A DNA stretch of 64,000 nt from Polyangium fumosum (GTDB lineage: Bacteria; Myxococcota_A; Polyangia; Polyangiales; Polyangiaceae): NCBI RefSeq assembly GCF_005144585.1, contig NZ_SSMQ01000003.1, positions 124,001-188,000 of the forward strand, given 5' to 3'. Shown piece by piece: positions 16,742 to 42,188 of the stretch. The number at the start of each line of letters is the position of its first letter. Within the stretch, counting starts at the first letter, position 1. Both the position numbers and the translations under genes were made by a program. Below the pieces are notes generated by a model. It had not been told where the DNA came from and did no database searches. It worked only from the letters and a program-made list of their open reading frames with translations.

Positions 16742-16858
16742 CGGGCGAACTCTACCTTAACGGAACGTGACAGGGCGAGATCGGTGCGCGCAGGCGGCCG
16801 AGGATGCGTGGTGTCTGCAAGGACGAGGCGATCGCGCGCGTGGGGGATCACCTTGCCC

Positions 16859-17133
16859 GTCGCCACGTGGCGACCCCCTCACGTCACGATGACGCGTGCC
16901 TGTCGCCGCGTGGCGACCCCCTCGCGTCACGGCGACGCGTGCCCGTCGCCGCGTGGCGACCCCCTCGCGTCACGACGACGTGTGCCCGTCGCCGCGTGGC
17001 GACCCCCTCGCGTCACGACGACGCGTGCCCGTTGCCACGTGGCGACCCCCTCACGTCACGATGACGCGTGCCCGTTGCCACGTGGCGACCCCCTCGCGTC
17101 ACGACGACGCGTACCCGTCGCCGCGTGGCGACA
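16859..17133. repeat. Tandem array of 43-bp units (6.3 copies)
   Basis: Seven copies of GTGGCGAC start at 16867, 16910, 16953, 16996, 17039, 17082 and 17125, each exactly 43 bases apart. Each unit contains a 16-bp dyad (perfect in copy one: GTCGCCACGTGGCGAC, 16859-16874) and a second imperfect dyad GCGTCA..TGACGC. Copies differ by a few substitutions. 43 is not a multiple of 3, so this is not a protein repeat, and there are no variable spacers, so it is not CRISPR. It fills most of the 470-base gap between two minus-strand genes. Forty-three bases is close to four helical turns. Confidence 0.9.
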
Positions 17134-29985: not shown

Positions 29986-30251
29986 GGGGTCTCCAAGGAA
30001 AGCAAGGGGCCGCGCCCGTGCCCGGGGGGCGGGCCCGCGGCGCCGCGGCGACGATGCAAAATCCCAGCCTCCAGGGGAAGCAGGGGCGAACGCCGTGAAA
30101 ACGGGCCCCGCAGGTAGCTTCTGCCGGGGTCACGCGGGTCGCAGTGCTGACATTGCGGTCCGGGTCAAGAGCCCGCCAAGATAGGGTCGCAAGAAGGGGA
30201 GCCTGGGTCGGGACAGCTTGGGGTTCGAGGTACGACCGACGGGCGGGCATC

Positions 30252-30451
30252 CTGCAACCCTCTCCAGGACACGCGCAACGGTCTGCCAGGCAGACTGCGA
30301 CCCTCTCCAGGACACGCGCAACGGTCGGTCGGTCTCCTGCGACCCTCCTCCAAGACAGTCACAACCGTCTGGCGGGCCTCCTGCGACCCTCTCTCAAGAC
30401 AGTCGCAACCGTCTGGCGGTATCCTACGACACGCCTTCAGGGCGCTCGCAA
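30252..30451. repeat. Left half of a split 42-44-bp tandem array
   Basis: Units beginning CTGCGACC (or close variants) start at 30252, 30295, 30337, 30381 and 30424. The spacings are 43, 42, 44 and 43 bases. The fifth unit is cut after 28 bases at 30451, where the inverted repeat of the mobile element begins. The array continues at 39801. Upstream, 29986-30251 shows no gene, only GC-rich intergenic sequence. It is not coding, since the period is not a multiple of 3. Confidence 0.85.
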
Positions 30452-30466
30452 CGGCTTTGCCCTAGA
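30452..30466 (+). repeat. Left terminal inverted repeat
   Basis: CGGCTTTGCCCTAGA. Its exact reverse complement forms the right end at 39779-39793. The match stops at the 16th base. The target-site copy CTCGCAA lies immediately outside. Confidence 0.8.
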
Positions 30467-30544
30467 TCGGGCTTGTGAGGCAGCCTTCCGAGGCAGGTGA
30501 TCAGCTTTCAGGGCACCCGCGTCAACCTACACCGGCACCACGCC

Positions 30545-30572
30545 TTGACGGGCCTGAACGATCGGCTACCTT
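30545..30572 (+). promoter_or_regulatory. Possible promoter inside the left end of the element
   Basis: TTGACG (30545-30550), a 16-base spacer and TACCTT (30567-30572) resemble a sigma-70 promoter. The next gene starts at 30751, leaving a leader of about 170 bases. Sequence match only. Confidence 0.25.
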
Positions 30573-30750
30573 CGTCTCACGGACTTCTGTCCGTCGGCGT
30601 CCTCCAACGCCGGACCCAAGAGCCTCCCCCCGCGAGGCTCTCCCGAGGGTGAAGGGGCTTCGGTCTCGGAGGCGTCGCGTGTTCGACCCTGTTCGACCTG
30701 CGGCGAGACGGGTGCGGGGACTGCTCGACCGTAGGGGATAGGGCTCGAAC

Positions 30751-31293
30751 ATGACCCAGAAGAACGCGAAGAAGGCGGCTGCGCGCGCTCGTCAGGCCAC
30801 GCAGGGTGGCAAGTACCAGGCGAACCTCCGCATCGTGGGCGGAGGCGCCGGCAGCTCCCCGAAGCCGTGGACGTGCTCGAAGTGCAAGAAGCCGATTGCG
30901 GCGGGCGAAGGAAGCGTGGACGTGATGGACGCGGAGACCGGCGGCTCCCCCAGACGCCCCACGTCCTCGGAGCGGCGGCTCACGCCGGAGGCGATCGAAG
31001 AACGGCAGAAGCAGGGCAGGCCGACGCAGCCCCCGTTCGACGGCTTCAGTATCGGGGAGTTGGAGCGCAACCCCATCCAAATCGCGTTTGGCGCGTACCA
31101 CTTCGAGTGCGTCGAGAGCGCCGACATGGAGCCGTACTGGATCGCCGTGGAACGAGCGGAGACGCTCGAACAGTGGTGCCACTGGGTCCACCATCTCACG
31201 GAGAAGACGTGGATGGCCAAGGACGACATCGCCAGGATGCTCGCCTTCTGGTTCACGAACCGGGGCGAGGACATCTACCAGGTGCCGACCTGA
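30751..31293 (+). CDS. Hypothetical protein with a zinc-finger-like motif
   Basis: The 180-residue protein has a basic Ala/Lys/Gln-rich start (MTQKNAKKAAARARQATQGG). WTCSKCKKPI then gives a CxxC pair. The rest includes FGAYHFECVESADMEPYWIAVERAETLEQWCHWVHHLTEKTWMAKDDIARMLAFWF, where HxxC could complete a zinc site. This part looks globular and Trp-rich. I do not recognise a family. It is the first cargo gene of the mobile element and points inward. Confidence 0.55.
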   Translation: MTQKNAKKAAARARQATQGGKYQANLRIVGGGAGSSPKPWTCSKCKKPIAAGEGSVDVMDAETGGSPRRPTSSERRLTPEAIEERQKQGRPTQPPFDGFSIGELERNPIQIAFGAYHFECVESADMEPYWIAVERAETLEQWCHWVHHLTEKTWMAKDDIARMLAFWFTNRGEDIYQVPT

Positions 31294-31333
31294 CGGCCGC
31301 GCCAGCCAGAGTCACCAGCGACTTCTAGAGCCG

Positions 31334-31681
31334 CTAGGCGGCCCCGCCTTCGCCGAGACGCTGGGCGTTCACCGCCGTAATGATCGTCTCGTCCGGGAAG
31401 GAAACGATGAGCCAGAAGGCCGTCGAGCCGCTCTTCAGCTCCACGGCCGTGTCCTTGGCGGGCTTCGAGACCTTCTCGGCGAGAAACTTCGGCGCGGAAG
31501 GGTCGGCGAGAAGGCGCTCACGGACGTAAGCGGTAACGGGGTCTACTTCGACCTCCGTGTCAAAGTACAGCACGAGGTCGGTGGTGCCGAAGTGCTCGAC
31601 GGCCGCCCAGTAGGCTTCAAAGAGGCGATCGTCGATCAGGTTGTGCAGGCGCGCGTCGAGCTTCACGACCACGTTGTACAC
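31334..31681 (-). CDS. Hypothetical protein, mobile-element cargo
   Basis: The 115-residue protein runs MYNVVVKLDARLHNLIDDRLFEAYWAAVEHFGTTDLVLYFDTEVEVDPVTAYVRERL and ends in STAFWLIVSFPDETIITAVNAQRLGEGG. It appears to be a mixed alpha/beta fold without cysteine or catalytic motif. It is the last of a run of minus-strand genes that starts with the transposase and lies 13 bases after the preceding stop. Function is unknown. Confidence 0.5.
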   Translation of the reverse strand: MYNVVVKLDARLHNLIDDRLFEAYWAAVEHFGTTDLVLYFDTEVEVDPVTAYVRERLLADPSAPKFLAEKVSKPAKDTAVELKSGSTAFWLIVSFPDETIITAVNAQRLGEGGAA

Positions 31682-31694
31682 CGGCTTCCGTTCG

Positions 31695-31991
31695 CTAGCG
31701 ACCCGGTGTAGCGGTCAGTTTGGGGGATTCGCCGCAGCCGGCAGGATCACCGGGCTCCGGAGGCGCAGCGGCGTCGATCCGGGCTTCCAATACGCGTATG
31801 TTCTTGAGCATCTCGCTCCGCAGGAAATCGCGGGAGTGAACGCGCTTGCTCGATGTCGCGTCCTCGGTAAGCCTTCGGAGGCTCGCTACGACGGGACGAA
31901 GTTCGCCTGCGTAGGCCGCCAGCGCGGCCGGGTCGGTCGTCTCGACGGGGCGGTGCAACCGTTCCCGTTCCCTCACACGGGAGCGGGTCAT
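31695..31991 (-). CDS. Small helical hypothetical protein
   Basis: The 98-residue protein is mostly helical (ALAAYAGELRPVVASLRRLTEDATSSKRVHSRDFLRSEMLKNIRVLEARIDAAAPP) with a Pro/Gly-rich tail. Its ATG overlaps the stop of the HTH gene upstream as ATGA, so translation is coupled. It may be a partner of that regulator. No family is recognised. Confidence 0.5.
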   Translation of the reverse strand: MTRSRVRERERLHRPVETTDPAALAAYAGELRPVVASLRRLTEDATSSKRVHSRDFLRSEMLKNIRVLEARIDAAAPPEPGDPAGCGESPKLTATPGR

Positions 31992-32299
31992 GCCGCCCTC
32001 CCGATGATGATAGGCGCCACGATGAGCTTGCCGCCGAGGAGCACTTCGACGGGGACGTTCGCCACGGCGGCCAAGCGGATCGCGAAGGTCCCGGTCGGCC
32101 GGGCGCCCTTGGGGTTGGCGACACGCCGGACCGTGTTCGCTGGGACGCCGAGCATCGCGGCGAGACGATTGAAGCTGCCAAAGGCCCGGCGGAGCTTGCG
32201 GACAGCGACACGGACGGCCTTGGCTTCCTCGTCGGAGAGCTTCAGCGCATCGGAGCGGCGGCGTCGCTGCTCGGGTGAAGACTTGTGGTTGAGTTCCAT
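31988..32299 (-). CDS. Small HTH (XRE-like) DNA-binding protein
   Basis: The 103-residue protein has SDEEAKAVRVAVRKLRRAFGSFNRLAAMLGVPANTVRRVANPKGARPTGTFAIRLAAVANVPVEVLLGG. This follows the XRE helix-turn-helix layout with a recognition helix around PANTVRRVAN. It resembles the XRE/zinc-ribbon protein downstream of the transposase in its general plan. A cluster of TGGATG repeats lies just upstream and could be its operator. Confidence 0.6.
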   Translation of the reverse strand: MELNHKSSPEQRRRRSDALKLSDEEAKAVRVAVRKLRRAFGSFNRLAAMLGVPANTVRRVANPKGARPTGTFAIRLAAVANVPVEVLLGGKLIVAPIIIGRAA

Positions 32300-32308
32300 G
32301 CCCCCGGT

Positions 32309-32394
32309 TGGATGGTATTTCCGTCCGCCGCGGGAGATGGTTTTTCTTGGCCTAGCACGTGGATGGTGGATGCTGGATGCCGGGCCCCTGGATG
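32309..32394. repeat. TGGATG repeat cluster
   Basis: TGGATG occurs at 32309, 32360, 32367, 32374 and 32389. Three copies are exactly 7 bases apart. The cluster lies in the 116-base gap between the exonuclease stop and the HTH gene start. It could be an operator for the small HTH protein. The function is a guess; the repetition is seen directly. Confidence 0.4.
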
Positions 32395-32415
32395 GTGAAC
32401 AATTCTGTCGGGAAT

Positions 32416-33165
32416 TCAGGCGGCGACCGGAATCCCTGCCCGCGGGATGAGCCGCTCCCGGTTGATCAGCGGGAGCAGAGGAGCCAGGCGAGGCTCGCCC
32501 TCGATCTTCGCCAGCAGCCCCTCCATGGCCTCCGTGTAGCCGGACGGCGCCAACTGCCCGCGGAGAAGCTGCACCCGGAGAAACAGCGCCGCCGTCTGCA
32601 CCACGTCCTGCATGCAATACGCCCGCACCTGCTCGATCTCCCCCGCGTCGATCATGGCTTGCACGTCGGCCCCATTGCAGTCGAGCTTCCCGGGCATGCC
32701 AATGAGCTTCGCGGCGAGATCGAGGGAGTAGGCTCTCGTCGCGCCGTAATCCGCGAGCAGATCCATCAGGTCGATGTGGCCCTCGGTGCTGTAGCGGTAG
32801 CGGGTGTCCCGCTGCTGGTAGTACCAGGGGAAAGCCAGCCCGTGATGGAGGCATCTCGCGACGACGACCGGAAGATCGAAGCCGCGCCCGTTCCAGGAAA
32901 TGAGAGTCGTCTCGACACCCTCGGAGAGCCTCACGTTCAAGAACGCGACCAGGGCCGCGAGGGAAGCGAACTCATCACGACCCTCGCCGACGATCCAGAC
33001 GCTCCGCAGCCGGCAGTCCGCATCAAGGAGCGCCGCGCCCATGACTGCGATCTTGTGGTAGGGCACCGCGGGGAAGCTATCGCTCCCGTCCTTCCGCTTC
33101 TTCGGCGGCGGGAGCGACGTGTCGTGCACCGTCTCCAGGTCGAGCACGAGGTACTGGCGATTCAT
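32416..33165 (-). CDS. PolB-like 3'-5' DEDDy exonuclease
   Basis: The 249-residue protein is an RNase H-fold exonuclease of the predicted PolB-like (DNA_pol_B_exo2) type. Exo I is YLVLDLETV near residue 5, Exo II is SWNGRGFDLPVVVARC near 90, and Exo III is VRAYCMQDVVQTAALFLR near 185 with the Y-x3-D spacing of DEDDy enzymes. HIDLMDLLADYGA and SLDLAAKLIGMPGK are also family blocks. It would remove nucleotides from DNA or RNA 3' ends. ATG 33165 overlaps the preceding stop as ATGA and has GGAGGTAGG just upstream, so it is coupled to the transposase operon. Confidence 0.85.
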   Translation of the reverse strand: MNRQYLVLDLETVHDTSLPPPKKRKDGSDSFPAVPYHKIAVMGAALLDADCRLRSVWIVGEGRDEFASLAALVAFLNVRLSEGVETTLISWNGRGFDLPVVVARCLHHGLAFPWYYQQRDTRYRYSTEGHIDLMDLLADYGATRAYSLDLAAKLIGMPGKLDCNGADVQAMIDAGEIEQVRAYCMQDVVQTAALFLRVQLLRGQLAPSGYTEAMEGLLAKIEGEPRLAPLLPLINRERLIPRAGIPVAA

Positions 33166-33434
33166 TGGCCTACCTCCTGCTGGTGACCGCAGTAAGGGCA
33201 CGTCCCCGGCGGCGGGAAGTTCCCGCGGAGGAGATCATCGACCCCCACGTTGACGAGCTTGGAGATCCTAATGGCCAAGCTCGCGCTCACCGTCTTCCCG
33301 TTCGCCACGTGCGCGATCGTCGCCTCCTTGAAGCGGAGGGCCTTCGCCAGCGAAGCCCACCCGCCGAAGCGAAGGCGAAGGAACTGCAAGGCGGCCCGGA
33401 CGTGCGCCTCCTCCTGGTTCGTGAGATCGTTCAT
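33162..33434 (-). CDS. Small XRE-type HTH protein with C-terminal zinc ribbon
   Basis: The 90-residue protein has an HTH-like body (FGGWASLAKALRFKEATIAHVANGKTVSASLAIRISKLVNVGVDDLLRGNF) followed by CPYCGH, half of a zinc ribbon. It overlaps the transposase stop (ATGA at its start) and the exonuclease start (ATGA at its end), so three proteins are made from one coupled message. It could direct transposase or exonuclease to element DNA, or repress the operon. This is inference from gene order. Confidence 0.65.
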   Translation of the reverse strand: MNDLTNQEEAHVRAALQFLRLRFGGWASLAKALRFKEATIAHVANGKTVSASLAIRISKLVNVGVDDLLRGNFPPPGTCPYCGHQQEVGQ

Positions 33435-34660
33435 GCCACCCTCCCTTCCGTCGTCTTCTGCGCCCAGAACTGCGGGGCGATCCCCAACTCGTGGATCGAG
33501 TGCGCCACCATGACGATGTTGTGCGCGATGAGCTTGCAGTAGACCTCGTTGAACTGGGCCGTCTCCAGCCTCGACCGCAATGACGGCCCGAACTTCCGCT
33601 TCACAGCCGAGAAGACCGTCTCGGAGTTCGATCGCTTGTGGTAGTGCGCCAGAAACTCGTCGCGCTGGAAGCTGTAGAGGTGGAAGAGCTTCTTCCAGAT
33701 CGCCGGCCCGTCGCCCGCGATCGAGTTCTCCTTGAACGCGATGTACGGCGTCGCGCCCACCTTCTCGACGGCCTCGTAATTCGAGAACGAGAGGTAGCCC
33801 TTGTCGGCCGAGACCTCGCGCATGGTGAAGTTCTTCGCCGTTCGCTCGGTAAGCATCGGGAGCAGGGGCGAGTCGTGCTGGTTGCCGTGGGTCACCTCGG
33901 CCGCGGTGACGACGTGCGTCTTCACGCCAATCATGGCGTGCGCCTTCACCCACGCCTGCGTCTTCTTCTCCATCCCCCGCTCGTCGAACCAGCGGACGTA
34001 GTTGCACGTCGAGAACCCCGTCCCGTCGATCGCGAAGTCGGTCTCGACGGCCTGTAGAGGCATCGCCGACTGCTCGACCAGGCCGCGTAGAATCGGCGTC
34101 AGGTTCGCGTCCTCCATGTACCGGAAGACCGAGTTGTAGTGGGGCGCGCGCGTGAGTAGACCCTTCTGCTCGCATTCGCGGATATCCGTCGAGGCCCGGC
34201 GCCCCGAGACGGTGCTGTAGACCTTGGTCACCGCGGCGTAGACGACGTCGGCGAGCTGGAGTGCGGGCCGCCCCGTCTTCTTCGGCGCGGGCTGGACGAC
34301 CCCTTTGACCAAGTCGCGAAGGAGGATCTCGAAGCGCTCCTTCTCCGTCGTCTGCGCGGCGTTGTAGGCCGTCCAGTTCTGCTGGTACGTCGGCTTCTTC
34401 GTCTGCGTGACGAGCGTCGTTCCCTCGGGAACCTCCACGCGCCCCATCCGAATCTCGACGGCCCACACGTGTTTGCACGGCTGCCCGGTCGTCGCGTAAT
34501 CGGGGCACGTGCAGGTTCGAGCCTGGGCGTCGACGACATAGGAGCCGCCGTGCGACTGCGAGGGGACGAGGAAGAGGCCGGGCTTCAACTCGCGGATCTG
34601 CTTCGACTTCGCGAGCATGGCGCCTCGAATACGGCGCGGTTCGATCTGAGTCGCGTCCAT
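33431..34660 (-). CDS. IS4-type DDE transposase with N-terminal SWIM zinc finger
   Basis: The 409-residue protein starts with a SWIM finger: C50, C52, C62 and H64 in CTCPDYATTGQPCKHVWA. The catalytic core has D212 (AIDGTGF), D286 (SADKGYLS) and E347. The IS4-group Y-(2)-R-(3)-E-(6)-K signature is perfect: Y340, R343, E347 and K354 in YHKRSNSETVFSAVK. IS4-group enzymes typically make target duplications of about 9-12 bp, compatible with the element's flanks. ATG 34660 was chosen; GTG 34696 is an in-frame alternative. The gene lies well inside the 9.3-kb element and no closer inverted repeats were noticed around it. Confidence 0.88.
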   Translation of the reverse strand: MDATQIEPRRIRGAMLAKSKQIRELKPGLFLVPSQSHGGSYVVDAQARTCTCPDYATTGQPCKHVWAVEIRMGRVEVPEGTTLVTQTKKPTYQQNWTAYNAAQTTEKERFEILLRDLVKGVVQPAPKKTGRPALQLADVVYAAVTKVYSTVSGRRASTDIRECEQKGLLTRAPHYNSVFRYMEDANLTPILRGLVEQSAMPLQAVETDFAIDGTGFSTCNYVRWFDERGMEKKTQAWVKAHAMIGVKTHVVTAAEVTHGNQHDSPLLPMLTERTAKNFTMREVSADKGYLSFSNYEAVEKVGATPYIAFKENSIAGDGPAIWKKLFHLYSFQRDEFLAHYHKRSNSETVFSAVKRKFGPSLRSRLETAQFNEVYCKLIAHNIVMVAHSIHELGIAPQFWAQKTTEGRVA

Positions 34661-34743
34661 GGATAGTGCCTTGCCTTTCGCCCGGCCGCGGCCCACGATG
34701 CACTTGAAGGGATGCTTCGGTGGGCAACTGCCGGGTGTTCTGG

Positions 34744-34778
34744 GCCTCGCCTCCCGGCCGCTAACCGAGAGGCGAGGC
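34744..34778. promoter_or_regulatory. Stem-loop in the transposase leader
   Basis: CCTCGCCTC (34745-34753) pairs with GAGGCGAGG (34769-34777), extended by one G-C pair. It lies in the predicted transcript leader about 85 bases before the transposase start. It could be an RNA control element that limits transposase synthesis or blocks read-through from outside. There is no U-tract. Confidence 0.4.
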
Positions 34779-34808
34779 TGTTTCCTGTTTGGTGTCGTTG
34801 CTGTCGAC

Positions 34809-34883
34809 GGTCCCTAATGTGGCCACAATAGGACCACATGTCAAGGGTTGACTTGGGGGTCTGTTGTGGCCACGCTAGGGCCA
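34809..34883. promoter_or_regulatory. Divergent promoters sharing TGTGGCCAC operators
   Basis: On the minus strand TTGACA (34844-34839), 17 bases, then CACATT. On the plus strand TTGACT (34848-34853), 17 bases, then CACGCT. The nonamer TGTGGCCAC overlaps both -10 regions, at 34818-34826 and 34865-34873, 47 bases apart and each followed by NNTAGG. The minus promoter would drive the transposase operon and the plus one the RHH gene at 34883. The plus start codon falls about 7 bases after the -10 hexamer, so that mRNA may be leaderless. The RHH protein is the obvious candidate to bind the nonamer. Confidence 0.5.
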
Positions 34884-35113
34884 TGGCGACCTCCAAGAGA
34901 ACGCGGGCGGCTCCGGCCGCGCCAAAGGAAGCACCCCCTCCCAAGCTTCGCCGGAAAGACGAGGCGAGCCGGAAGGAGGAGGTCATCAAGATCCGGGTGA
35001 CCGGCGAGCAGAAGGCGACGCTGACCGAGGCAGCGTCGCGGGACGGGCTCGACGTCTCGTCGTGGCTCAGATCGCTCGGCCTTCGTACAGCCGCCGGCTC
35101 CTCCTCATCCTGA
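34883..35113 (+). CDS. Ribbon-helix-helix type small regulator
   Basis: The 76-residue protein has a basic Pro/Ala/Lys tail and then KEEVIKIRVTGEQKATLTEAASRDGLDVSSWLRSLGLRTA. A beta strand (VIKIRV) followed by two helices is the Arc/CopG/MobC-type ribbon-helix-helix plan. It is divergent from the transposase and sits on repeated TGTGGCCAC sites, so autorepression and transposase repression are likely. RHH proteins in mobile elements also act as relaxosome accessory factors, but no relaxase is seen here. Confidence 0.6.
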   Translation: MATSKRTRAAPAAPKEAPPPKLRRKDEASRKEEVIKIRVTGEQKATLTEAASRDGLDVSSWLRSLGLRTAAGSSSS

Positions 35114-35122
35114 GTCCGCGGT

Positions 35123-35587
35123 CTACGCCGCGTCGTCCCACGGGAGGGGCCGCTCCCGCAGGAGCGGCCCCGGGCGATACGTATTGCCCACCGTGATGAC
35201 GATGGTGGCCAGATCGAGCCCGGCCTTTCGAGCGTGTCGGCTGATCCCGGAAAGCGTCCCGCCGACGACGTTGTTTGACCTGTACCCAGGTCCGAGCGCC
35301 TCGCGGAACGCATCTCTGGTGAGCGGCCTTTCCAGCTTCTTGAGCGTCGAGAGCACGTGGCGGTGGGATGCCAACCACTCCTCGGAGAGCATCCTCATGA
35401 GGATCCCCCACGAGTCCTCGATGCAGCTCGGTCGGGAGACCAAGCTCTCGGGCTTCTCGAAGACCTCGATGTTCGGCTTCGAGTCCGAGGTCTCGGCTAC
35501 GGGCTTCTTCAGCTTCGACCACAGGGCGAAGACCTCGTCGGCGCTGTCGGCGCGAACGCGACCATCAGGGAAAATCTCGTACGGCAC
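35123..35587 (-). CDS. Hypothetical protein, mobile-element cargo
   Basis: The 154-residue protein starts at GTG 35587 with GGAGGT 7 bases upstream, reading VPYEIFPDGRVRADSADEVFALWSKLKKPV. The C-terminal half is helical with a possible winged-helix look (ERPLTRDAFREALGPGYRSNNVVGGTLSGISRHARKAGLDLATIVI). It converges with the RHH gene. A DNA-binding role is possible but not shown. No family recognised. Confidence 0.5.
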   Translation of the reverse strand: MPYEIFPDGRVRADSADEVFALWSKLKKPVAETSDSKPNIEVFEKPESLVSRPSCIEDSWGILMRMLSEEWLASHRHVLSTLKKLERPLTRDAFREALGPGYRSNNVVGGTLSGISRHARKAGLDLATIVITVGNTYRPGPLLRERPLPWDDAA

Positions 35588-35734
35588 GGTGCTCACCTCC
35601 AGGACGCACCCCGCCTCTGACGCGCAAGGACTCGCGCGCCGGTGTAGACGAGAAGCACGTCGTGTTGCTGCTGCGCGTGACGTCTCGGGAGTTGCTGCTC
35701 GGGGCTGTCGGCAACGCCGGGGGCGATGCGACGA

Positions 35735-35769
35735 GGAGAGCCACGACGCTTGCATCGTCGTGGCTCTCC
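35735..35769. repeat. Perfect 14-bp stem-loop in a 590-base gene gap
   Basis: GGAGAGCCACGACG (35735-35748) and CGTCGTGGCTCTCC (35756-35769) form a perfect stem with a 7-base loop. The gap 35588-36177 lies between two divergently oriented genes. The stem cannot be an ordinary terminator for either. The rest of the gap holds an AT-rich stretch (about 35870-35965) unusual for this chromosome and no convincing gene. An operator, RNA element or replication-related site are all possible. Confidence 0.5.
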
Positions 35770-36177
35770 GCCCTTCTGCGCACTCAGGAAGCCGTCACGG
35801 ACTCGCTGGTCTCATCCAGCAAGGAGACGTCTACCCCCCGATCAGCATCGCATCCAGAACAAAATCGACCGACGGTCAAGCAGAAAGATCGATAAAGTTT
35901 TTATACGAGCATCATTTCCAGCTCAAAAAATTCGCACACGAACGCGCGTCAAAATCGAATCTTGACAGAGCCGCCGAAAAATGGAAGCCGTCGATCGCTT
36001 CGCGGACTTGCGACTGCGTCGTGGTGGAGTGAGGGCGGGAAGGCGCTCGCCCAGCGGATGTCGGAGGGGCAGGCGAGGGAGTTGCCGAGCGTGCGCGGGT
36101 GGCTCAGGCTCGTATCGTTTGGTGTACAACCCCTCAACACGACGAGCGTCACGAGGCTGAGTCCCCGAGCACAAGTC

Positions 36178-36963
36178 ATGAGCCAGAAGAAAAGCAAGCG
36201 TGCCGTAGCAGTCCCCAAGTCCAACTCACCGGAAGATCTTCTGGATTGGGCTGTCCACGAACTCTCGGCGCAGTGGAATGGCGGCACAGACCACATTGCC
36301 ATCGTCATGGCAGGTGCCTCAGCCCCGCTCCCGAGCGTGTACTGGATGAGCCGGAGTGAAGCCGCCGACCATACGCTGGAGTACGCGAATAAATTAGCCG
36401 CATCGGATCCAAGTGCGAAGAACAAGCTCCAGCTCATGGCTGTCGAGATGCTCAAGCCCACCTCTGCGGGGATTCTCCAGGTGTCAGTTGCGACACCAAA
36501 GGGGGCCTTTTTGGGCAATCTAGACCCGGACGGCCTTGACCAACTGAACAGACAAGGGTCATCGAGCAATGCTATTCATGCGAGAAAGCAATTAATTCAG
36601 TCTCAGGCGAGGCCAATGCATGACTGCCTGAAGCAATGGGAAGCAGGCGGTAACGATCCGCAAGACGCGGTCATCGTGATCGCCGATCCCACGGATCCCC
36701 GTGCAGCGACTACGGCTTACGTTCTGAATAGCGTCATCTCTGAGATGACGGCCCAGGAAGATTTTTTCGGGGGAGAGCCCGTTGTCGTCGGATGTCCTAT
36801 CCCCAAAGCCATGGTTATCTTCGAGAAGATGCGGCCGAAGATTGTCGAGTGGCTGAACCTTAGCCCCGCCCCGGGCTCAACTCGGGTAATCTGCATGGGA
36901 CACGGGGGTGAGACATGCACCCACGGGAAGCTGTCAGCCACACCTCGCAAGTTGACGCGTTAG
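36178..36963 (+). CDS. Hypothetical protein of lower GC content, mobile-element cargo
   Basis: The 261-residue protein (MSQKKSKRAVAVPKSNSPEDLLDWAVHELSAQWNGG...) is not recognised. It looks globular with two alternating alpha/beta parts: DHIAIVMAGASAPLPSVYWMS and DAVIVIADPTDPRAATTAYVLNSVISEM. The C-terminus has CMGHGGETCTHGK with Cys/His. Codon use is visibly less GC-biased than in chromosomal genes around it, which suggests recent acquisition. No ribosome site is seen before ATG 36178; an upstream in-frame start at 35962 exists but gives a poor leader. Confidence 0.55.
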   Translation: MSQKKSKRAVAVPKSNSPEDLLDWAVHELSAQWNGGTDHIAIVMAGASAPLPSVYWMSRSEAADHTLEYANKLAASDPSAKNKLQLMAVEMLKPTSAGILQVSVATPKGAFLGNLDPDGLDQLNRQGSSSNAIHARKQLIQSQARPMHDCLKQWEAGGNDPQDAVIVIADPTDPRAATTAYVLNSVISEMTAQEDFFGGEPVVVGCPIPKAMVIFEKMRPKIVEWLNLSPAPGSTRVICMGHGGETCTHGKLSATPRKLTR

Positions 36964-36991
36964 ATAGCCAGCGTGACGAGACGGCTGGTGT

Positions 36992-37300
36992 TCAATCCCG
37001 GCTGGTCGGCCTCCGCTTCGGCTTCCTCCCCCGCTTCGGCGGATCGACCTGAAGATCGCGAAGCTGGACCTCCAGCGGCGGTTCGTCCCCCACCTCCACG
37101 AGATCGCGGACTGAGACCCCGAGCCTCTCGGCCAGCAGGAACAAGGTTCGGAGCGAGGGGTTCCCATCGCCCCGCTCCAGCTCGCCGAGCAAGCGGAACG
37201 TCAACACGTCCGCCGACGCTTCCTCCTGGGTGAGCTGCGCGCGCCACCGAGCCTTGCGAACGTTTTCGCCTACCGCCTTGATGAACCTGTCGAAGTCCAC
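36992..37300 (-). CDS. XRE-family HTH regulator
   Basis: The 102-residue protein has a canonical HTH_3 domain: FIKAVGENVRKARWRAQLTQEEASADVLTFRLLGELERGDGNPSLRTLFLLAERLGVSVRDLVEV. A basic tail ends RGRKPKRRPTSRD. GTG 37300 fits the domain start; no strong Shine-Dalgarno is visible. It is divergent from the small lipoprotein gene at 37427 and may control it and itself from the 126-base gap between them, which carries AT-rich promoter-like sequence. Confidence 0.75.
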   Translation of the reverse strand: MDFDRFIKAVGENVRKARWRAQLTQEEASADVLTFRLLGELERGDGNPSLRTLFLLAERLGVSVRDLVEVGDEPPLEVQLRDLQVDPPKRGRKPKRRPTSRD

Positions 37301-37426
37301 CCGGCAAGAGGACGCTTTAGCTTCCCTGTAATGTAGCCCAACAAAAGGAAGGAATTGACTTGAGGCCGGATGAGGGCCGACGCATCCATGCGCGCGGGCG
37401 ACGAGTGCTCGCCCATGGAGGCGAAG

Positions 37427-37828
37427 ATGAAGAAGCAGTTCTTCCTGGGGATCCTCTTGGCCATCGCGGCTTGTGGGAAGGGAGGCGGCCCTTCGGACGC
37501 CGAGGTGTCCGAGGCCGTGACCGAGGCGGCGAAGTCGAGCGAGGGCTACGCTCCGTTGACGGGAACGCACAGCGGGCCGTGCGGGGTCATGAAGGGCCCG
37601 ATCACCAAGGTCGCCAAGGTCGAGATCACGCAGCGGGGCGAGATGAACGAGCAGGAGCGCTACGTCCCCGTGACGGTGACGATCTCGGGGACGTGCATGG
37701 CGCAGTTCCCCAGGTGCGGGTCGGGGCTTTGCCCACCCGAGCCCACGGAGTTCACGACGGCGAAGCCCGTCGCGTTCAAGGTGAAGAAGAACGACGAGGG
37801 GAAGTGGATCGCCGAGAAGAGCGAGTGA
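37427..37828 (+). CDS. Small lipoprotein, mobile-element cargo
   Basis: The 133-residue protein starts MKKQFFLGILLAIAACGKGG, a classic lipoprotein signal with Cys16. The mature part has five further Cys (GPCGVMK, GTCMAQFPRCGSGLCPP), which could form disulfides outside the inner membrane. GGAG is 6 bases before ATG 37427. Small envelope lipoproteins on mobile elements sometimes act in surface exclusion or phage exclusion; nothing here proves that. Confidence 0.6.
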   Translation: MKKQFFLGILLAIAACGKGGGPSDAEVSEAVTEAAKSSEGYAPLTGTHSGPCGVMKGPITKVAKVEITQRGEMNEQERYVPVTVTISGTCMAQFPRCGSGLCPPEPTEFTTAKPVAFKVKKNDEGKWIAEKSE

Positions 37829-37835
37829 CGCACCT

Positions 37836-37985
37836 GTGAAGGGGCTGCCAGCCTTCCGCGTGACCTACGAGAGGCTCTATGCGGAGAACGAGGCCGTCGC
37901 CCTGGCGGACGGCTGCCGTCGCCTCTACAGGGCAAAGACAGAGCCGAGCCCGAACGGCAACATCTTCTGCTGCCCGGGGAAGTAG
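37836..37985 (+). CDS. Possible 49-residue small protein
   Basis: A GTG-initiated frame 7 bases after the lipoprotein stop encodes MKGLPAFRVTYERLYAENEA and continues to end NIFCCPGK. It keeps a normal codon bias and has a double Cys near the end. It is too short to judge by composition alone. No clear Shine-Dalgarno is visible. Confidence 0.3.
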   Translation: MKGLPAFRVTYERLYAENEAVALADGCRRLYRAKTEPSPNGNIFCCPGK

Positions 37986-38024
37986 GCGCTTCACGCCCGC
38001 CTCGTGGAACGGTAGGACGTGCAC

Positions 38025-38330
38025 ATGCACATCCTGCTCGTTGCCTACGAGATTCACATCGCCAACAAGACGGGCGAGAAACTGGAGAAGGCCAACCAGC
38101 GTCGTAACGACATCCTCGCCTTCATCCGGAGGCACGACCACCGTCGGCTGTCCGAATCTTCCTACGCCATTGAGGCCCACCAGCCCGCTGAGGCGTACGC
38201 CAAGGCGGTTCTGGAACTGACGGAGGACGACGACGAACTGTACATCATGCCCCTGGTTGGCCCACTCATGGCGTACGGGCGCGACGACGTTCACGAATGG
38301 CTCGAAGCTCGTCTTCGTCGTCCGGGTTGA
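38025..38330 (+). CDS. Small protein resembling stand-alone Cas2/SinR-like folds
   Basis: The 101-residue protein reads MHILLVAYEIHIANKTGEKLEKANQRRNDILAFIRRH..LSESSYAIEAHQPAEAYAKAVLELTEDDDELYIMPLVGPLMAYG. The order beta (ILLVAYEI), helix, S-Y/W-A-I strand, helix and DDDELYIMPL strand matches solitary Cas2-like (SinR) ferredoxin-fold proteins. No cas genes or CRISPR array are present. AGGA lies about 8 bases before ATG 38025; GTG 38019 is the alternative start. The assignment is pattern-based and uncertain. Its end overlaps the convergent gene by 65 bases. Confidence 0.4.
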   Translation: MHILLVAYEIHIANKTGEKLEKANQRRNDILAFIRRHDHRRLSESSYAIEAHQPAEAYAKAVLELTEDDDELYIMPLVGPLMAYGRDDVHEWLEARLRRPG

Positions 38331-38535
38331 TGCCGGACGCACGGAGGACCTCCTTCACGGCGGTCGAGTATCCGTGCGACCTCTCGGGATTGCCGGCGGG
38401 ATCGGGGCGCAGACCGAAGCGGGTGCGCCAGCCCCTTGCGAGAGCACCACGCACTTCCGCGGGGTCGAGCTTGAAGACGTGGTTGAGGATGAAGTCGACG
38501 GAGGCGCTGATGCCGCCCTTCGTGGTCTCGGTCAT
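38266..38535 (-). CDS. Small hypothetical protein convergent with 38025-38330
   Basis: The 89-residue protein (MTETTKGGISASVDFILNHVFKLDPAEVRGALARGWRTRFGL...HGYSTAVKEVLRASGINPDDEDELRAIRERRRARTP) is not recognised. It looks helical with a basic C-terminus. It overlaps the convergent gene tail by 65 bases, which lowers confidence in the exact 3' part of one of them. Confidence 0.4.
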   Translation of the reverse strand: MTETTKGGISASVDFILNHVFKLDPAEVRGALARGWRTRFGLRPDPAGNPERSHGYSTAVKEVLRASGINPDDEDELRAIRERRRARTP

Positions 38536-38646
38536 GCCGGCCAGCTACACCACGAGCGGCATCTGAACGCCCAGCATGTGACGCCGCGAAGCGTGGCCGG
38601 CAGCAAGCGCTTGTTGGGCAGTTCCGGGAGCAAGAGAGAACTGCGG

Positions 38647-39246
38647 TCAGGTGCGGTTTAACGAAGCAAGCAGCGCATCGATTTCGAACGAGGCCCAGCA
38701 AACCTTCGCCAGTTCATTGCCTCTATTCTTCCAGGAAGCATTGATCACTTTGAAGTTCTTGGCTTGAACATGCTCGACTGCGGGGATGAAATCCTTGTCG
38801 CTCGACACGAGAATTGCCACATCGTAAGCACCTTCCCATGCAAGCCCGACAAGATCGGTGACGATGCGTGCATCGACCGTCTTCTCCGCAGCGCGGCCAA
38901 AATGGGCCCCGCACTGCGGGCACTTCTCATGCTCCGTATCGCATGAGCGACAGTGCACCGGCTGCTTTCGCCAATGCCGCTCCGACGTGAAGACCCGAAC
39001 CCCTGGCTGGCGATCGAGGAAGTTGTGAAGCCAGTTCTTGAGGCTATTCTCGCGTCCCGCCTCATAACCGGCATACACTCTGGTTTCTTCGAGAGTCAGG
39101 GCTCCAAGGCCCGCGCTATTGATCGCGCGTGACGCCTCACCGCAGAGCACGGACGGCAGTCGGCGCCAGTCACACCCCAGCCTGCCTGTTCGCTCGTTCC
39201 AGGCAAGCTGGAAGTTCCAGTAGTCGATGAAGACCCTGACGCGCAT
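38647..39246 (-). CDS. NYN-domain (PIN-like) nuclease with zinc-ribbon insert
   Basis: The 199-residue protein opens MRVRVFIDYWNFQLAW, where Asp8 and Asn11 are typical NYN active-site residues. EKTVDARIVTDLVGLAWEGAYDVAILVSSDKDFIPAVEHVQ gives the remaining acidic cluster (D..D...SxDxDF). A four-Cys ribbon (CRSCDTEHEKCPQC) is inserted before the second half. NYN proteins are metal-dependent RNases of the PIN-like group. A leader peptide and intrinsic terminator sit just upstream, so expression is probably attenuated. Codon bias is lower in GC than surrounding genes. Confidence 0.8.
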   Translation of the reverse strand: MRVRVFIDYWNFQLAWNERTGRLGCDWRRLPSVLCGEASRAINSAGLGALTLEETRVYAGYEAGRENSLKNWLHNFLDRQPGVRVFTSERHWRKQPVHCRSCDTEHEKCPQCGAHFGRAAEKTVDARIVTDLVGLAWEGAYDVAILVSSDKDFIPAVEHVQAKNFKVINASWKNRGNELAKVCWASFEIDALLASLNRT

Positions 39247-39256
39247 TACTACCCTA

Positions 39257-39287
39257 CAAAAAAATGCGGGGAGCCTTTCGGCTCCCC
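39257..39287 (-). terminator. Intrinsic terminator 10 bases before the NYN gene
   Basis: On the minus strand GGGGAGCC-GAAA-GGCTCCCC (39287-39268) is followed within three bases by TTTTTTT (39264-39258). This is a textbook intrinsic terminator, one of few T-tract terminators in the window. It lies between the leader peptide (39310-39345) and the NYN start at 39246, so it most likely works as an attenuator rather than a plain end signal. Confidence 0.8.
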
Positions 39288-39309
39288 GGGACGAACATGC
39301 GCGCCAGCC

Positions 39310-39345
39310 TTAGGCCAAGGCCTCGGACTGACGCGGGGCAAACAT
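39310..39345 (-). CDS. 11-codon leader peptide upstream of the NYN nuclease
   Basis: ATG 39345 opens a short frame encoding MFAPRQSEALA and a TAA stop at 39312-39310, 23 bases before the attenuator stem. AGGA lies 8 bases before the ATG. A TTGACA box is at 39380-39375, so the promoter may place the transcription start at or near the ATG. Promoter, mini-ORF, terminator, gene is the layout of ribosome-dependent attenuation. The sensed signal (slow translation at particular codons, an antibiotic, release or tRNA shortage) cannot be read from sequence. Confidence 0.5.
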   Translation of the reverse strand: MFAPRQSEALA

Positions 39346-39351
39346 GAATTA

Positions 39352-39380
39352 TTCCTAATAACGGCCGCGGCGCCTGTCAA
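39352..39380 (-). promoter_or_regulatory. Promoter for leader peptide and NYN gene
   Basis: TTGACA (39380-39375), a 17-base spacer and TAGGAA (39357-39352). The leader ATG is 7 bases beyond the -10, the same spacing seen for the RHH gene at 34883. A perfect -35 is rare in this genome. The -10 match is modest. Confidence 0.4.
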
Positions 39381-39406
39381 GTGATAACCGCTGCCCAACG
39401 CCTCGC

Positions 39407-39634
39407 CTAGTAGCCGCGGATGCGCTCGACCAGCCGAGCAACAGCCTCGACAGCTTCGGCTTGCCCGACTCCGCGCCGAACAGACTCATGAGCGGCCCCG
39501 CGCCCAGGGGCGACCACCTGCGCGACCCAACGATCCCCGTCGTCCCGCGTGGTGATCTCGACGTACAGCCCCGGCTCGATCAGGTCGCGTTGCAGCGTCC
39601 CCCGTACAAGCGTCTCGAAGTGCGCGAAGTCCAT
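39407..39634 (-). CDS. Small hypothetical protein at the right end of the element
   Basis: The 75-residue protein (MDFAHFETLVRGTLQRDLIEPGLYVEITTRDDGDRWVAQVVAPGRG...AVEAVARLVERIRGY) looks like an alpha-beta-beta-alpha fold similar in size to small element-encoded accessory proteins. No strong ribosome site. It is the last gene before the right inverted repeat. Function unknown. Confidence 0.45.
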   Translation of the reverse strand: MDFAHFETLVRGTLQRDLIEPGLYVEITTRDDGDRWVAQVVAPGRGAAHESVRRGVGQAEAVEAVARLVERIRGY

Positions 39635-39778
39635 GTAGATCGTCTAGCACGCCCAGGCGCGACTTCAACGCGCCGCGGCATGCAAGAAAATCCCGGAGCG
39701 AGGAGCACGACGCGCGTGCTCCTCGCCCTCGCGTAGACTTCCGAGGCAGCGCGACGGACTTCTCGGGCACGACGGCCT

Positions 39779-39793
39779 TCTAGGGCAAAGCCG
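39779..39793 (-). repeat. Right terminal inverted repeat
   Basis: Exact reverse complement of the left repeat at 30452-30466. CTCGCAA, the second copy of the flanking direct repeat, follows at 39794-39800. Array sequence resumes at 39801. Confidence 0.8.
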
Positions 39794-39800
39794 CTCGCAA

Positions 39801-39985
39801 CGGTCGGCCGGTATCCTGTGACCCTCCTCCAGGACCCTTGCACCTGTCCGCCGGGGAGGGTGCGACCCCCTCCAAAACACGCGCCCCTGTCGGCTGGGGG
39901 GCTTGCGACCCTCTTCAGGACACATACAACTGTTTGTCGGGCATCTCGCGATCCCCTCTCCAGGACGGTGCAACCCTCTCTCGGG
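39801..39985. repeat. Right half of the split 43-44-bp tandem array
   Basis: The first 15 bases complete the unit cut at 30451. Further units start near 39816, 39860, 39903 and 39946, 43-44 bases apart, with the same GCGACC and CCAGGAC landmarks as the left half. The units are more diverged here than in the 16.9-kb array. The remaining bases to the PtuA start at 40076 hold no gene. Confidence 0.8.
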
Positions 39986-40075: not shown

Positions 40076-41431
40076 ATGCGAATCCGCACCTTAGGAATCG
40101 ATAACTTCAAGAGGTTCGCGCACCTGGAGTTCGGACTCCATCCGCAGTTCACGCTGCTCGTGGGCGAGAACGGGGCGGGCAAGACCAGCCTGCTCGATGC
40201 GCTCGCGGTGAGCCTGGGGATCTGGCTGGTGCACCCCCCCGATACACTCGTCCGGAACAGCGGCCGCAACATCCTGCGGACCGAGGTCCGCCTGGAGCCG
40301 TCCCTGGAGGGGGATCGTATCCAGTTCCGTGAACAATTCCCTGTCATCGTGTTTTCGCTCGGCCAGATCGGCCCCGTGGAGAGTGTCGCGTGGGAGCGTG
40401 TGCTCGGAAGTGGCGGCAGGACGTCCAGCGCGGGGTCCAAACAGGCGCTCGACATCATCGGGGACATGTACAAGCGCGACGCGGCCGGGGAGCATGTCGT
40501 CCTCCCGGTGCTCGCTTATTACGGCGCGGGCCGCGCGTGGTTACCCTCGAATCAGCGAATCCAGAAGGACACCAAGCTCCACGGCCCTGCCCGCCGCTGG
40601 GCCGCCTTTTACGATTGCTTCAACGAGCGGATCCGGTTCGGGGATCTCAACGAGTGGTTTCGCCGCGAGGTCACCGCATCTGCGAGCCGCAAGGGCCGCA
40701 TGCGTCCCGGCTTCGAGGTCGTGCGCCGCGCCGTGCTCGGCTGCGTGGACGGGGCGGACGACGTCTGGTTCGACTCCGACCTCGACCAGATCGTCCTTTC
40801 CATCGGCGGCGAGGCGCAGCCTTTCGACAACCTGAGCGCCGGGCAACGCATGATGTTCGCCCTCGTCGCGGATCTCGCCATCAAGGCGGTCACGCAAAAC
40901 GCGTTTCTCCTCCCGCCCGACGAGCTCGGCCCCGAGGACGAGCCGCTCCCGCGCCTGCTACGGGAGACGCCCGGCGTCGTCCTGATCGACGAGCTCGACG
41001 TCCACCTGCACCCGCGCTGGCAGCGCCGCGTGGCCGCGGACCTCAAGCGGACGTTTCCGGCGATCCAGTTCGTCTGCACCTCCCATTCCCCCCAGGTCAT
41101 TGGCGAACTCAAACGCGAAGAGGTGCGCTTGCTCGGCGCCGAGGGCGTGACGTTGCCTCCGGTCGCATTCGGCGCCGATTCGAACTGGATCCTCGACCAC
41201 GTGATGACCGGGGCCACGAGTGAGACGAAGGCCTCCCGGACGCTCCAGCGGGACGTGGAGGACGCGCTCGCGGAGGGCCATCTGGAGGCCGCGCGGGGCA
41301 AGTTGCGCGAGCTGCGCGCCCTGCTCGACGGGGAGACGGGGGAGCTCGTGCGGCTGGAGAGCAGCCTGGAGACGCTCGAAGCGCTGGCCGAAGAGGGGGA
41401 CGACGAGGGGACCGGCCGTGCGGACGATTAA
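40076..41431 (+). CDS. ptuA: AAA ATPase, PtuA-like (Septu-type defence)
   Basis: The 451-residue protein is an SMC/RecF-like ATPase: MRIRTLGIDNFKRFAHLEF is the usual opening and Walker A is G30-ENGAGKT. LSAGQRMMFALVADLAI is the signature loop, VVLIDELDVHLHPRWQ (about residue 300) is Walker B, and CTSHSPQV is the H-loop. The long middle part and the overlapping HNH gene downstream match the PtuA-PtuB pair of Septu anti-phage systems. PtuA senses infection and controls PtuB nuclease activity. GGGAG precedes ATG 40076. An OLD-like overcoming-lysogenisation ATPase is the main alternative. Confidence 0.78.
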   Translation: MRIRTLGIDNFKRFAHLEFGLHPQFTLLVGENGAGKTSLLDALAVSLGIWLVHPPDTLVRNSGRNILRTEVRLEPSLEGDRIQFREQFPVIVFSLGQIGPVESVAWERVLGSGGRTSSAGSKQALDIIGDMYKRDAAGEHVVLPVLAYYGAGRAWLPSNQRIQKDTKLHGPARRWAAFYDCFNERIRFGDLNEWFRREVTASASRKGRMRPGFEVVRRAVLGCVDGADDVWFDSDLDQIVLSIGGEAQPFDNLSAGQRMMFALVADLAIKAVTQNAFLLPPDELGPEDEPLPRLLRETPGVVLIDELDVHLHPRWQRRVAADLKRTFPAIQFVCTSHSPQVIGELKREEVRLLGAEGVTLPPVAFGADSNWILDHVMTGATSETKASRTLQRDVEDALAEGHLEAARGKLRELRALLDGETGELVRLESSLETLEALAEEGDDEGTGRADD

Positions 41432-42188
41432 GAAGCGTCCACCACCGAGCGCCCTCGTCGAGTGGCGCGCCAAGCGGCTCACCAAGGATCCCGGCGAAGG
41501 GATGAAGTGCACGTACGAGGAGCTGCGCCGCGACACGTCGGCGCTGCCAGCCGTCGAAGACGGGCTTTTTGCGGAGCAGGGAGGGATCTGCGCATATACC
41601 GGCATCCAGATCCGGCTCGACGCCTCCTCGGAACCGAGGAAGGTGGACTTCCACCTCGAGCACGTGACTCCGCAGAAGCACTGCATCTACGGGCAAGACG
41701 CCGACTACGGCAACCTCGTCGCGTGCTGGCCCCGGCCCAATTGTGGATTCGAGCCGCTGTTCGGGGCCGTCACCAAGAAAAGCTGGCCGTCACCGGAGGA
41801 GAAACACCTCTTTGTTTCGCCGCTGGACCCGGGATGCACCGCGAGGTTTTCATTCAATCACCGCGGAGAAATCTCTCCAGCCGATGAAAAGGATGATGCC
41901 GCGAAGACGACGATCGAGAAGCTGGGGCTCGCGCATGCCACGCTGACCGATCTGCGACGCGGAGCGATCCTGGGTGCGCTGCAGCCTCCCGGGCGCCTCC
42001 TCAGCCTGGAGCAAGCGCGACGGCTGCTCGCGACCCTGAAGGCGGACGCCGAGAAGCTCGATCAGGGCGGCTCCGTTCGGCTCCGCGCGTTCAGCTTCGT
42101 GATCGAACAGGTCCTCCCCCGCGAGATCAGGAAACTCGAAGGGATCAAGAAGTCCAAGCAGAAGGCGGCTGGTTCGGCGCGGAAGTGA
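41418..42188 (+). CDS. ptuB: HNH endonuclease, PtuB-like (TIGR02646 family)
   Basis: The 256-residue protein has the retron/Septu HNH layout: CAYTGIQI, then H79-L-E-H82-VTPQ and DYGNLVACWPRPNCG (Asn99). This matches the family annotated as retron-system or Septu HNH endonucleases (TIGR02646). GTG 41418 starts inside the last 14 bases of the ATPase gene, so the two are translationally coupled as expected for a PtuAB pair. It would cut nucleic acid during phage infection. No reverse transcriptase or retron RNA is visible nearby, so a plain Septu system is more likely than a retron. Confidence 0.8.
   Translation: MRTIKKRPPPSALVEWRAKRLTKDPGEGMKCTYEELRRDTSALPAVEDGLFAEQGGICAYTGIQIRLDASSEPRKVDFHLEHVTPQKHCIYGQDADYGNLVACWPRPNCGFEPLFGAVTKKSWPSPEEKHLFVSPLDPGCTARFSFNHRGEISPADEKDDAAKTTIEKLGLAHATLTDLRRGAILGALQPPGRLLSLEQARRLLATLKADAEKLDQGGSVRLRAFSFVIEQVLPREIRKLEGIKKSKQKAAGSARK

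Follow-up and report, generated by a model that had tools for sequence, protein, structure and literature searches.

A 9,340-bp cargo-carrying transposon inside a 43-bp tandem array of Polyangium fumosum

In a 64,000-nucleotide stretch of the Polyangium fumosum genome (contig NZ_SSMQ01000003.1, positions 124,001 to 188,000; "the window", numbered from its first letter), a tandem array of 43-bp units breaks off inside a unit and resumes more than 9 kb further on. What occupies this gap, and how did it get there? The segment at 30453-39792 is a real transposon of 9,340 bp, lying inside the 43-bp tandem array in the chromosome of this soil bacterium. Very probably, it is a unit transposon that is moved by its own IS5-like transposase (with SWIM and DDE domains) and that has multi-site ends and exchangeable cargo. 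Loci and genomes are cited below by our L and G numbers.

The element and its boundaries

The features that delimit the element are as follows (TIR, terminal inverted repeat; TSD, target-site duplication).

30453..39792, no strand: whole element, 9,340 bp, delimited by TIR and TSD; R (transposase-downstream) end at 30453, L end at 39792
30453..30466, +: R-end TIR GGCTTTGCCCTAGA, 14 bp, perfect
39779..39792, -: L-end TIR, 14 bp, perfect partner of GGCTTTGCCCTAGA
30444..30452, +: TSD GCTCGCAAC, left copy, 9 bp
39793..39801, +: TSD GCTCGCAAC, right copy, 9 bp
30235..30452, no strand: 43-bp tandem array, left part (array listing and Tandem Repeats Finder)
39802..39923, no strand: 43-bp tandem array, right part (array listing and Tandem Repeats Finder)

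A first-pass annotation had described perfect 15-bp inverted repeats, flanked on both sides by CTCGCAA. Both are present: CGGCTTTGCCCTAGA is at 30452-30466 with its exact complement at 39779-39793, and CTCGCAA is at 30445-30451 and 39794-39800. The true boundary, however, is one base further inward, with a 14-bp TIR and a duplication of 9 bp (GCTCGCAAC, the same junction shifted by one base). It was set there because this boundary stays constant across the relatives described below. The CGG boundary is disfavored because the Sorangium copy would then have non-complementary outer bases.

When the element and one copy of the duplication are removed, the 43-bp array is continuous again. The joined flanks rebuild a 43-base unit from 28 and 15 bases, as the annotation had counted, and Tandem Repeats Finder detects 7.7 copies with a period of 43 across the junction, besides an array of period 130. 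The agreement of these repeats had been judged very unlikely to arise by chance. In the window, a single pair of inverted repeats 1-20 kb apart combines 12/14 or more matches with a 9-bp direct repeat, and it is this 14/14 pair; resampled windows average 0.5 pairs at a threshold of at least 12/14 and 0.1 at a threshold of at least 13/14 (20 first-order Markov resamplings).

In the 12.98-Mb host genome, the 15-mer CGGCTTTGCCCTAGA occurs exactly twice, at the two ends of the element. A pattern search of this genome with up to two mismatches found 50 places, which are exact only at these two ends (backwards control: 31 places). The near-matches L003-L005 were scanned for paired ends, and no pair was found. 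Another sequence, GGGCTTTGCCCCAGA, recurs in the host genome (L007 and further places). Judged from the one locus that was read, these places look like a different and apparently unrelated intergenic repeat rather than further copies of the element.

The transposase

The enzyme that probably moves the element is encoded in its middle, followed directly by a small gene for a protein with a helix-turn-helix (HTH) and a CxxCG tail.

33431..34663, -: transposase (410 aa in the scan) with a SWIM zinc finger (CxCx9CxH; Pfam PF04434, 2e-7) that precedes the DDE domain (DDE_Tnp_1, PF01609, 5.4e-22)
33162..33434, -: small protein with HTH and CxxCG tail, its gene beginning where that of the transposase ends; weak HTH_3 match (17.1 bits, cut-off 23)

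The best NCBIfam model for the transposase is IS5_2, at 129.5 bits and thus below the cut-off of 140; by this profile evidence, the protein is predicted to be nearest to IS5. The DDE residues D213, D287 and E348 as well as the SWIM residues C51/C53/C63/H65 are invariant in two alignments which together cover 18 different transposases. The AlphaFold model of the transposase has a mean pLDDT of 83 and a pTM of 0.71.

Related elements

Ten of 144 genomes of the order, the host among them, encode the transposase (E 0.001). Of 183 genomes of the order, 7 were positive in a profile search at 1e-30; the count was 11 of 317 for the class and 5 of 377 for a phylum sample, and these sets overlap. The transposase is also encoded on a contig of Sorangium cellulosum and on 14 IMG/VR contigs, in 12 of these over most of its length. 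The Sorangium genome, which corresponds to G485 by identical coordinates and 100% identity, belongs to the family of the host and to a different genus; the phylum is accordingly Myxococcota. A plasmid search matched 712 records; the 15 matches listed have 25-27% identity, and 14 of them are annotated as IS5 transposase and one as another gene.

At 31 loci, including that of the window, 24 elements could be delimited, with sizes of 3,345-9,491 bp. They comprise the 23 loci where a transposase of family strength is not cut by a contig end (it is interrupted in L072) and L027, which has a decayed transposase. No element was delimited at the other seven: the transposase is at a contig end in L025 and L026; L015, L028 and L029 are weak matches (E 8.2e-12 to 5.2e-4), scanned for the end motif only; and L117 and L118 are short matches, with L118 left out of the scan. 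All delimited elements have the SWIM and DDE transposase in common. In 16 of the 24, the transposase is followed immediately on its 3' side by the HTH-CxxCG gene.

Ten proteins flanking the IMG/VR copies (from L105, L106, L109, L112, L114 and L116 only) were scanned for signs of a phage origin, with three PHROG matches (transposase, integrase, unknown) and three Pfam matches (IS605-type, endosialidase chaperone, integrase).

These relatives bear on several expectations raised by the first-pass annotation. With 23 further elements that have like ends and duplications, and with the element-free array described next for one of them, a one-step transposition is supported. The annotation had described a transposase in mid-element with cargo, not an ordinary insertion sequence (IS); the 24 elements have 3,345 bp or more, with further open reading frames (ORFs). 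Among the relatives examined, none has only part of the segment. The annotation had also asked whether all genes move together. Between relatives they do not: a core is common to the elements, and most of the cargo is not.

A candidate empty site was seen for one member, L020. Its right flank is 94% identical over 772 bp to a sequence of a Sorangium relative, in which the array runs on without the element. When the L020 flanks are joined, their alignment with this relative continues across the junction (88% over 614 columns). Arrays similar to the 43-bp array of the window, without an element, lie at two other places in the genus mate G098.

Ends and subterminal repeats

GGCTTTG is present at both ends in 22 of the 24 elements; the exceptions are L120 (GGCGTTG) and L071, which deviates. 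The target duplication is exactly 9 bp in 21 elements and 10 bp in L022, and it matches at 8 of 9 bases in L108 and L072. Two end scans were made, one favoring GGCTTTG-like ends and one not; the lists of the former served to pair the ends of L108 and L072 by eye.

Copies of an element's own TIR core recur inside both ends: 51 were observed, two of which (L024, L070) overlap the TIR itself, versus 4.2 expected from element interiors. Averaged over the 24 elements, direct copies peak at the transposase-upstream L end at positions L23 (z 11.2), L43 (z 7.1) and L44 (z 5.9), and inverted copies peak at the R end at R35 (z 13.0) and R55 (z 12.2). At a threshold of at least 7/10, these positions are occupied in 12 (L23), 7 (L43), 4 (L44), 14 (R35) and 12 (R55) of the 24 elements; some elements are devoid of any subterminal copy at 8/10 or more. 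The corresponding places in the window element are listed here.

30487..30496, -: R-end inverted TIR-core copy at position 35; weak, 6/10, counted by eye (family peak R35, z = 13.0)
30507..30516, -: R-end inverted TIR-core copy at position 55; weak, 7/10, counted by eye (family peak R55, z = 12.2)
39761..39770, -: L-end direct TIR-core copy at position 23, GTGCCCGAGA (family peak L23)
39740..39749, -: L-end direct TIR-core copy at position 44; weak, 6/10, counted by eye (family peaks L43/L44)

The subterminal copies match the end sequence of their own element (e.g., in L116), which would point to a single DNA-binding protein for terminal and subterminal copies. The multi-site, asymmetric layout recalls Mu or Tn7 more than a plain IS. 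In L116, the end core is present twice head to tail at one end (6945-6977, GGCTTTGCAACGGAAT repeated).

We propose that the transposase, perhaps with the HTH-CxxCG protein as a partner, binds the 14-bp TIRs and the core copies about 20 bp apart inside each end, and that it pairs the two non-equivalent ends. The element would then be cut out or copied, and be joined to target strands cut 9 bp apart, in this case inside the 43-bp array.

Insertion into tandem arrays

The window element is not the only one inside an array. The joined sites of five of the 24 elements lie in tandem arrays: the window (43 bp), L020 (22 bp), L021 (22 bp), L024 (6 bp) and L071 (21/42 bp). All five belong to the 12 elements from genomes of the host phylum, while none of the 12 in IMG/VR contigs does (this split was made after the result had been seen).

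As background, strong noncoding-type arrays were counted. A mixed sample of 400 kb, drawn from G436, G057, G100 and six host stretches, contained none. In a second sample, 400 kb from the host alone, they make up 0.35% of all bases and 4.3% of the noncoding ones; these two samples pooled (800 kb) give 1.2% of noncoding DNA. A third sample, 400 kb from a Sorangium, has 0.05% overall and 0.6% of noncoding. The binomial probability of 5 in 12 elements is 1.9e-7 at the pooled rate and 9.4e-5 at the host rate; for 5 in 24, it is 9.1e-6 and 0.003, with crude coding/noncoding calls and small n in each case. The samples leave out G022, the source of two of the five array insertions, and the noncoding-type rule also admits arrays that are partly called coding when their period is not a multiple of 3 (e.g., L130). 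An earlier background, 2.3-3.4% of bases in arrays (at 3.4%, p = 0.001 for 5 of 24 and 2.9e-5 for 5 of 12), was replaced because coding repeats were mixed in. Array insertion in the host-phylum subset is thus well above background, in a subset chosen after the fact.

At five places, the host has further strong arrays that repeat every 42-44 bp, close to four helical turns, and that differ in their units. Among the arrays listed for G436, G057, G100, G483 and six other host stretches, none repeats at this distance.

Window 16854-17132
L130 12336-12704 (72% called coding)
L134 17059-17378
L136 9889-10175
L137 8544-8747

Alternative explanations

Several observations weigh against a unit transposon moved by its own transposase, or against parts of this reading. 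The element and its transposase (E 0.001) are single-copy in the host genome, and recent activity is therefore unproven. Empty sites, which the first-pass annotation had proposed to look for in related genomes, did not turn up for the window locus when five genus mates were searched: in the stretches compared, three keep the left-flank gene and lack the array, the element and the right-flank genes, and two have just distant homologs of the left-flank gene. For the candidate site of L020, nothing but the right flank ties the relative to the locus, the match on the left being array sequence alone. The TIR of L071 matches at only 10/14, and in the scan not favoring GGCTTTG, a chance pair outscored the accepted pair of L021 and of L023 on inverted-repeat matches alone. 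The position pattern of the subterminal copies is not uniform, with a maximum of 14 of 24 elements at 7/10 for any position; five elements carry a direct copy at R54 (z 6.0), in place of the usual copies or in addition to them, and the copies in the window are weak, with L23 alone being strong. The PDB match of the transposase model is weak and does not single out one kind of DDE enzyme; ISCth4 comes first (E 8.7e-5, TM 0.33) and is the sole match with E <0.001.

Could the segment be a composite, its cargo moved by other machinery and a small SWIM-DDE IS inserted later? The transposase does lie in mid-element among functionally unrelated genes, and closer but weaker end pairs (8-10 of 14 matches) are listed in five other loci (L020, L022, L023, L027, L108). 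On the other hand, no closer pair of similar quality is listed around any transposase (best 8 or 4 pairs per locus), and no other pair in the window reaches even 12/14 with a 9-bp repeat. All 24 elements enclose the transposase (a remnant in L027) in like ends, and with a minimum of 3,345 bp, none is IS-sized. We consider a composite highly improbable. Less probable still is an integrative, conjugative or mobilizable element that uses the array as its attachment site. The NikA-like ribbon-helix-helix (RHH) protein described below would fit such an element, but its match also fits a regulator; integrase, relaxase and coupling protein are absent among the 15 element proteins searched with Pfam (these do not include a 75-aa ORF close to the L end), and perfect TIRs with a 9-bp TSD mark transposition.

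A different doubt concerns the arrays. Insertion may be unselective, with copies persisting where they are harmless, as in noncoding arrays, so that the enrichment reflects survivorship or sampling only. The array units are unrelated to each other and none of the 12 IMG/VR elements is in an array; thus, nothing points to a sequence-specific target. The subset of 12 elements was drawn up with the result in view, and for all 24 elements, p is 0.003 at the host rate and rises to 0.085 at an assumed 10%. The low background (1.2% pooled, 4.3% host, 0.6% Sorangium) and the binomial values obtained with it weigh against this reading. We give survivorship or sampling an even chance. Should a preference for arrays prove real, tandem repeats in noncoding DNA would be a harmless landing zone.

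Further core genes, cargo and neighboring genes

Besides its own transposase, the window element has about a dozen other genes. Three of them recur in part of the group.

34838..35113, +: RHH (NikA-like) protein, divergent from the transposase; PF21983 2.8e-7; in 8/24 elements
34812..34880, no strand: inverted repeat, 79% complementary, an imperfect palindrome around two divergent gene starts
35123..35593, -: 156-aa protein, no Pfam or NCBIfam match; in 7/24 elements
36992..37336, -: XRE-type regulator; PF01381 7.6e-8; in 13/24 elements (profile broad)

The inverted repeat is a possible promoter/operator, and the divergent RHH gene may have a regulatory role. In L071, an imperfect palindrome, seen by eye at about 10590-10660, likewise lies between divergent transposase and RHH genes and is a possible operator. 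The remaining genes are cargo.

32416..33174, -: PolB-type 3'-5' exonuclease; PF10108 2.2e-44
38647..39246, -: NYN-domain nuclease-like protein; PF01936 4.5e-13; PADLOC HEC-09 3.5e-13
31988..32300, -: 100-aa protein, no Pfam match; distant member by the HTH-CxxCG profile (place converted by hand)
36178..36963, +: 261-aa ORF, no Pfam family
30751..31293, +: 180-aa ORF, no Pfam or NCBIfam family
37370..37828, +: 152-aa ORF, lipoprotein-like by eye, no Pfam family
38019..38330, +: 103-aa ORF; 41% identical homolog in the Sorangium element
38266..38535, -: 89-aa ORF; 46% identical homolog in the Sorangium element

Profile searches with the exonuclease and the NYN protein matched none of the other elements, nor did the 100-aa protein's own search. 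Cargo was scanned in 73 ORFs (72 of at least 110 aa from the other elements, and the window exonuclease), picked by a simple GC-frame rule that lets in some false ones. By Pfam, five members of this set are N6_N4 methylases; BstXI-type endonuclease, BglII-type endonuclease, N6 methylase, RadC, PemK and other families have one member apiece. Methyltransferase or restriction-modification genes are present in 6 of the 24 elements: a methylase accompanies a BstXI-type endonuclease in L109 and a BglII-like one in L106, a methylase is found in L027, L111 and L112, and a large type I-like methylase in L116. Cargo varies between elements, and anti-phage genes are sometimes carried. Such cargo may benefit the host, and the restriction-modification cargo suggests a further route by which defense genes may move.

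Outside the element, directly to the right of the array (40076-42188), there is a PtuA/PtuB-like pair of Septu-type anti-phage genes (PADLOC 2.4e-99 and 1.3e-42), with scores below the NCBIfam cut-offs. The pair is not at this place in the genus mates G098, G116 and G108.

Comparison with known systems

The elements form a coherent and recognizable group of cargo transposons, for which a search rule can be given: a SWIM-DDE transposase, GGCTTTGC ends and a 9-bp duplication. Among the matches listed from the open-licence literature, no SWIM-IS5 group with these ends is named or described. It is tempting to go further and to speculate that this is a separate family with a single SWIM-DDE transposase, a dedicated HTH partner and Mu/Tn7-like multi-site ends, which in the host phylum homes to phased arrays (four of five periods are near 21-22 bp or double that) as a safe harbor and shuttles restriction-modification and other defense cargo between hosts. 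We regard this full scenario as rather unlikely.

Among known elements, IS903 has ends that start with GGCTTTG, like those described here. The best NCBIfam match of the window transposase is to an IS5 model, a DDE catalytic triad (D213, D287, E348 in 18 transposases; PF01609) is shared, and the exact 9-bp duplication of 21 of the 24 elements agrees with the IS5/IS903 rows of a published table, where the size of the IS903 group is about 1.05 kb (PMC3281130). In contrast to that size, with little beyond a transposase, the elements here have 3,345-9,491 bp with further ORFs, a SWIM domain and multi-site asymmetric ends, and the curated IS5 cut-off is not reached (129.5 versus 140, for the window protein only). 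Because of size, gene content and this score, the element was not filed as IS903.

A transporter IS is an IS with passenger genes, a term whose passage cites a paper on IS1595 (PMC3129680); passenger genes also occur in a subgroup of the IS4 family, in a table row fitting IS231 (PMC2266710). The elements here share the arrangement of an IS-type transposase and short TIRs that enclose passenger genes.

The resemblance to Tn7 and Mu lies in the ends. In Tn7 and Mu, each end has several binding sites, which are arranged differently left and right. Here, too, each end has several recognition-like sequences, candidates for binding, with differing left and right layouts. Defense genes are cargo of Tn7-like transposons, as they are among the elements here. 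The target duplication of Tn7 and Mu is 5 bp, in contrast to 9 bp here. There is one transposase here, and no TnsA/B/C or MuB homolog was found by Pfam among the 15 proteins of the window element. Asymmetric ends of Tn7-like transposons have been described (PMC13370975). By analogy, we take the working mode as that of a transporter IS, with an end layout like that of Mu or Tn7; the group would combine simple IS-type chemistry with the multi-site ends that are usual in larger machines.

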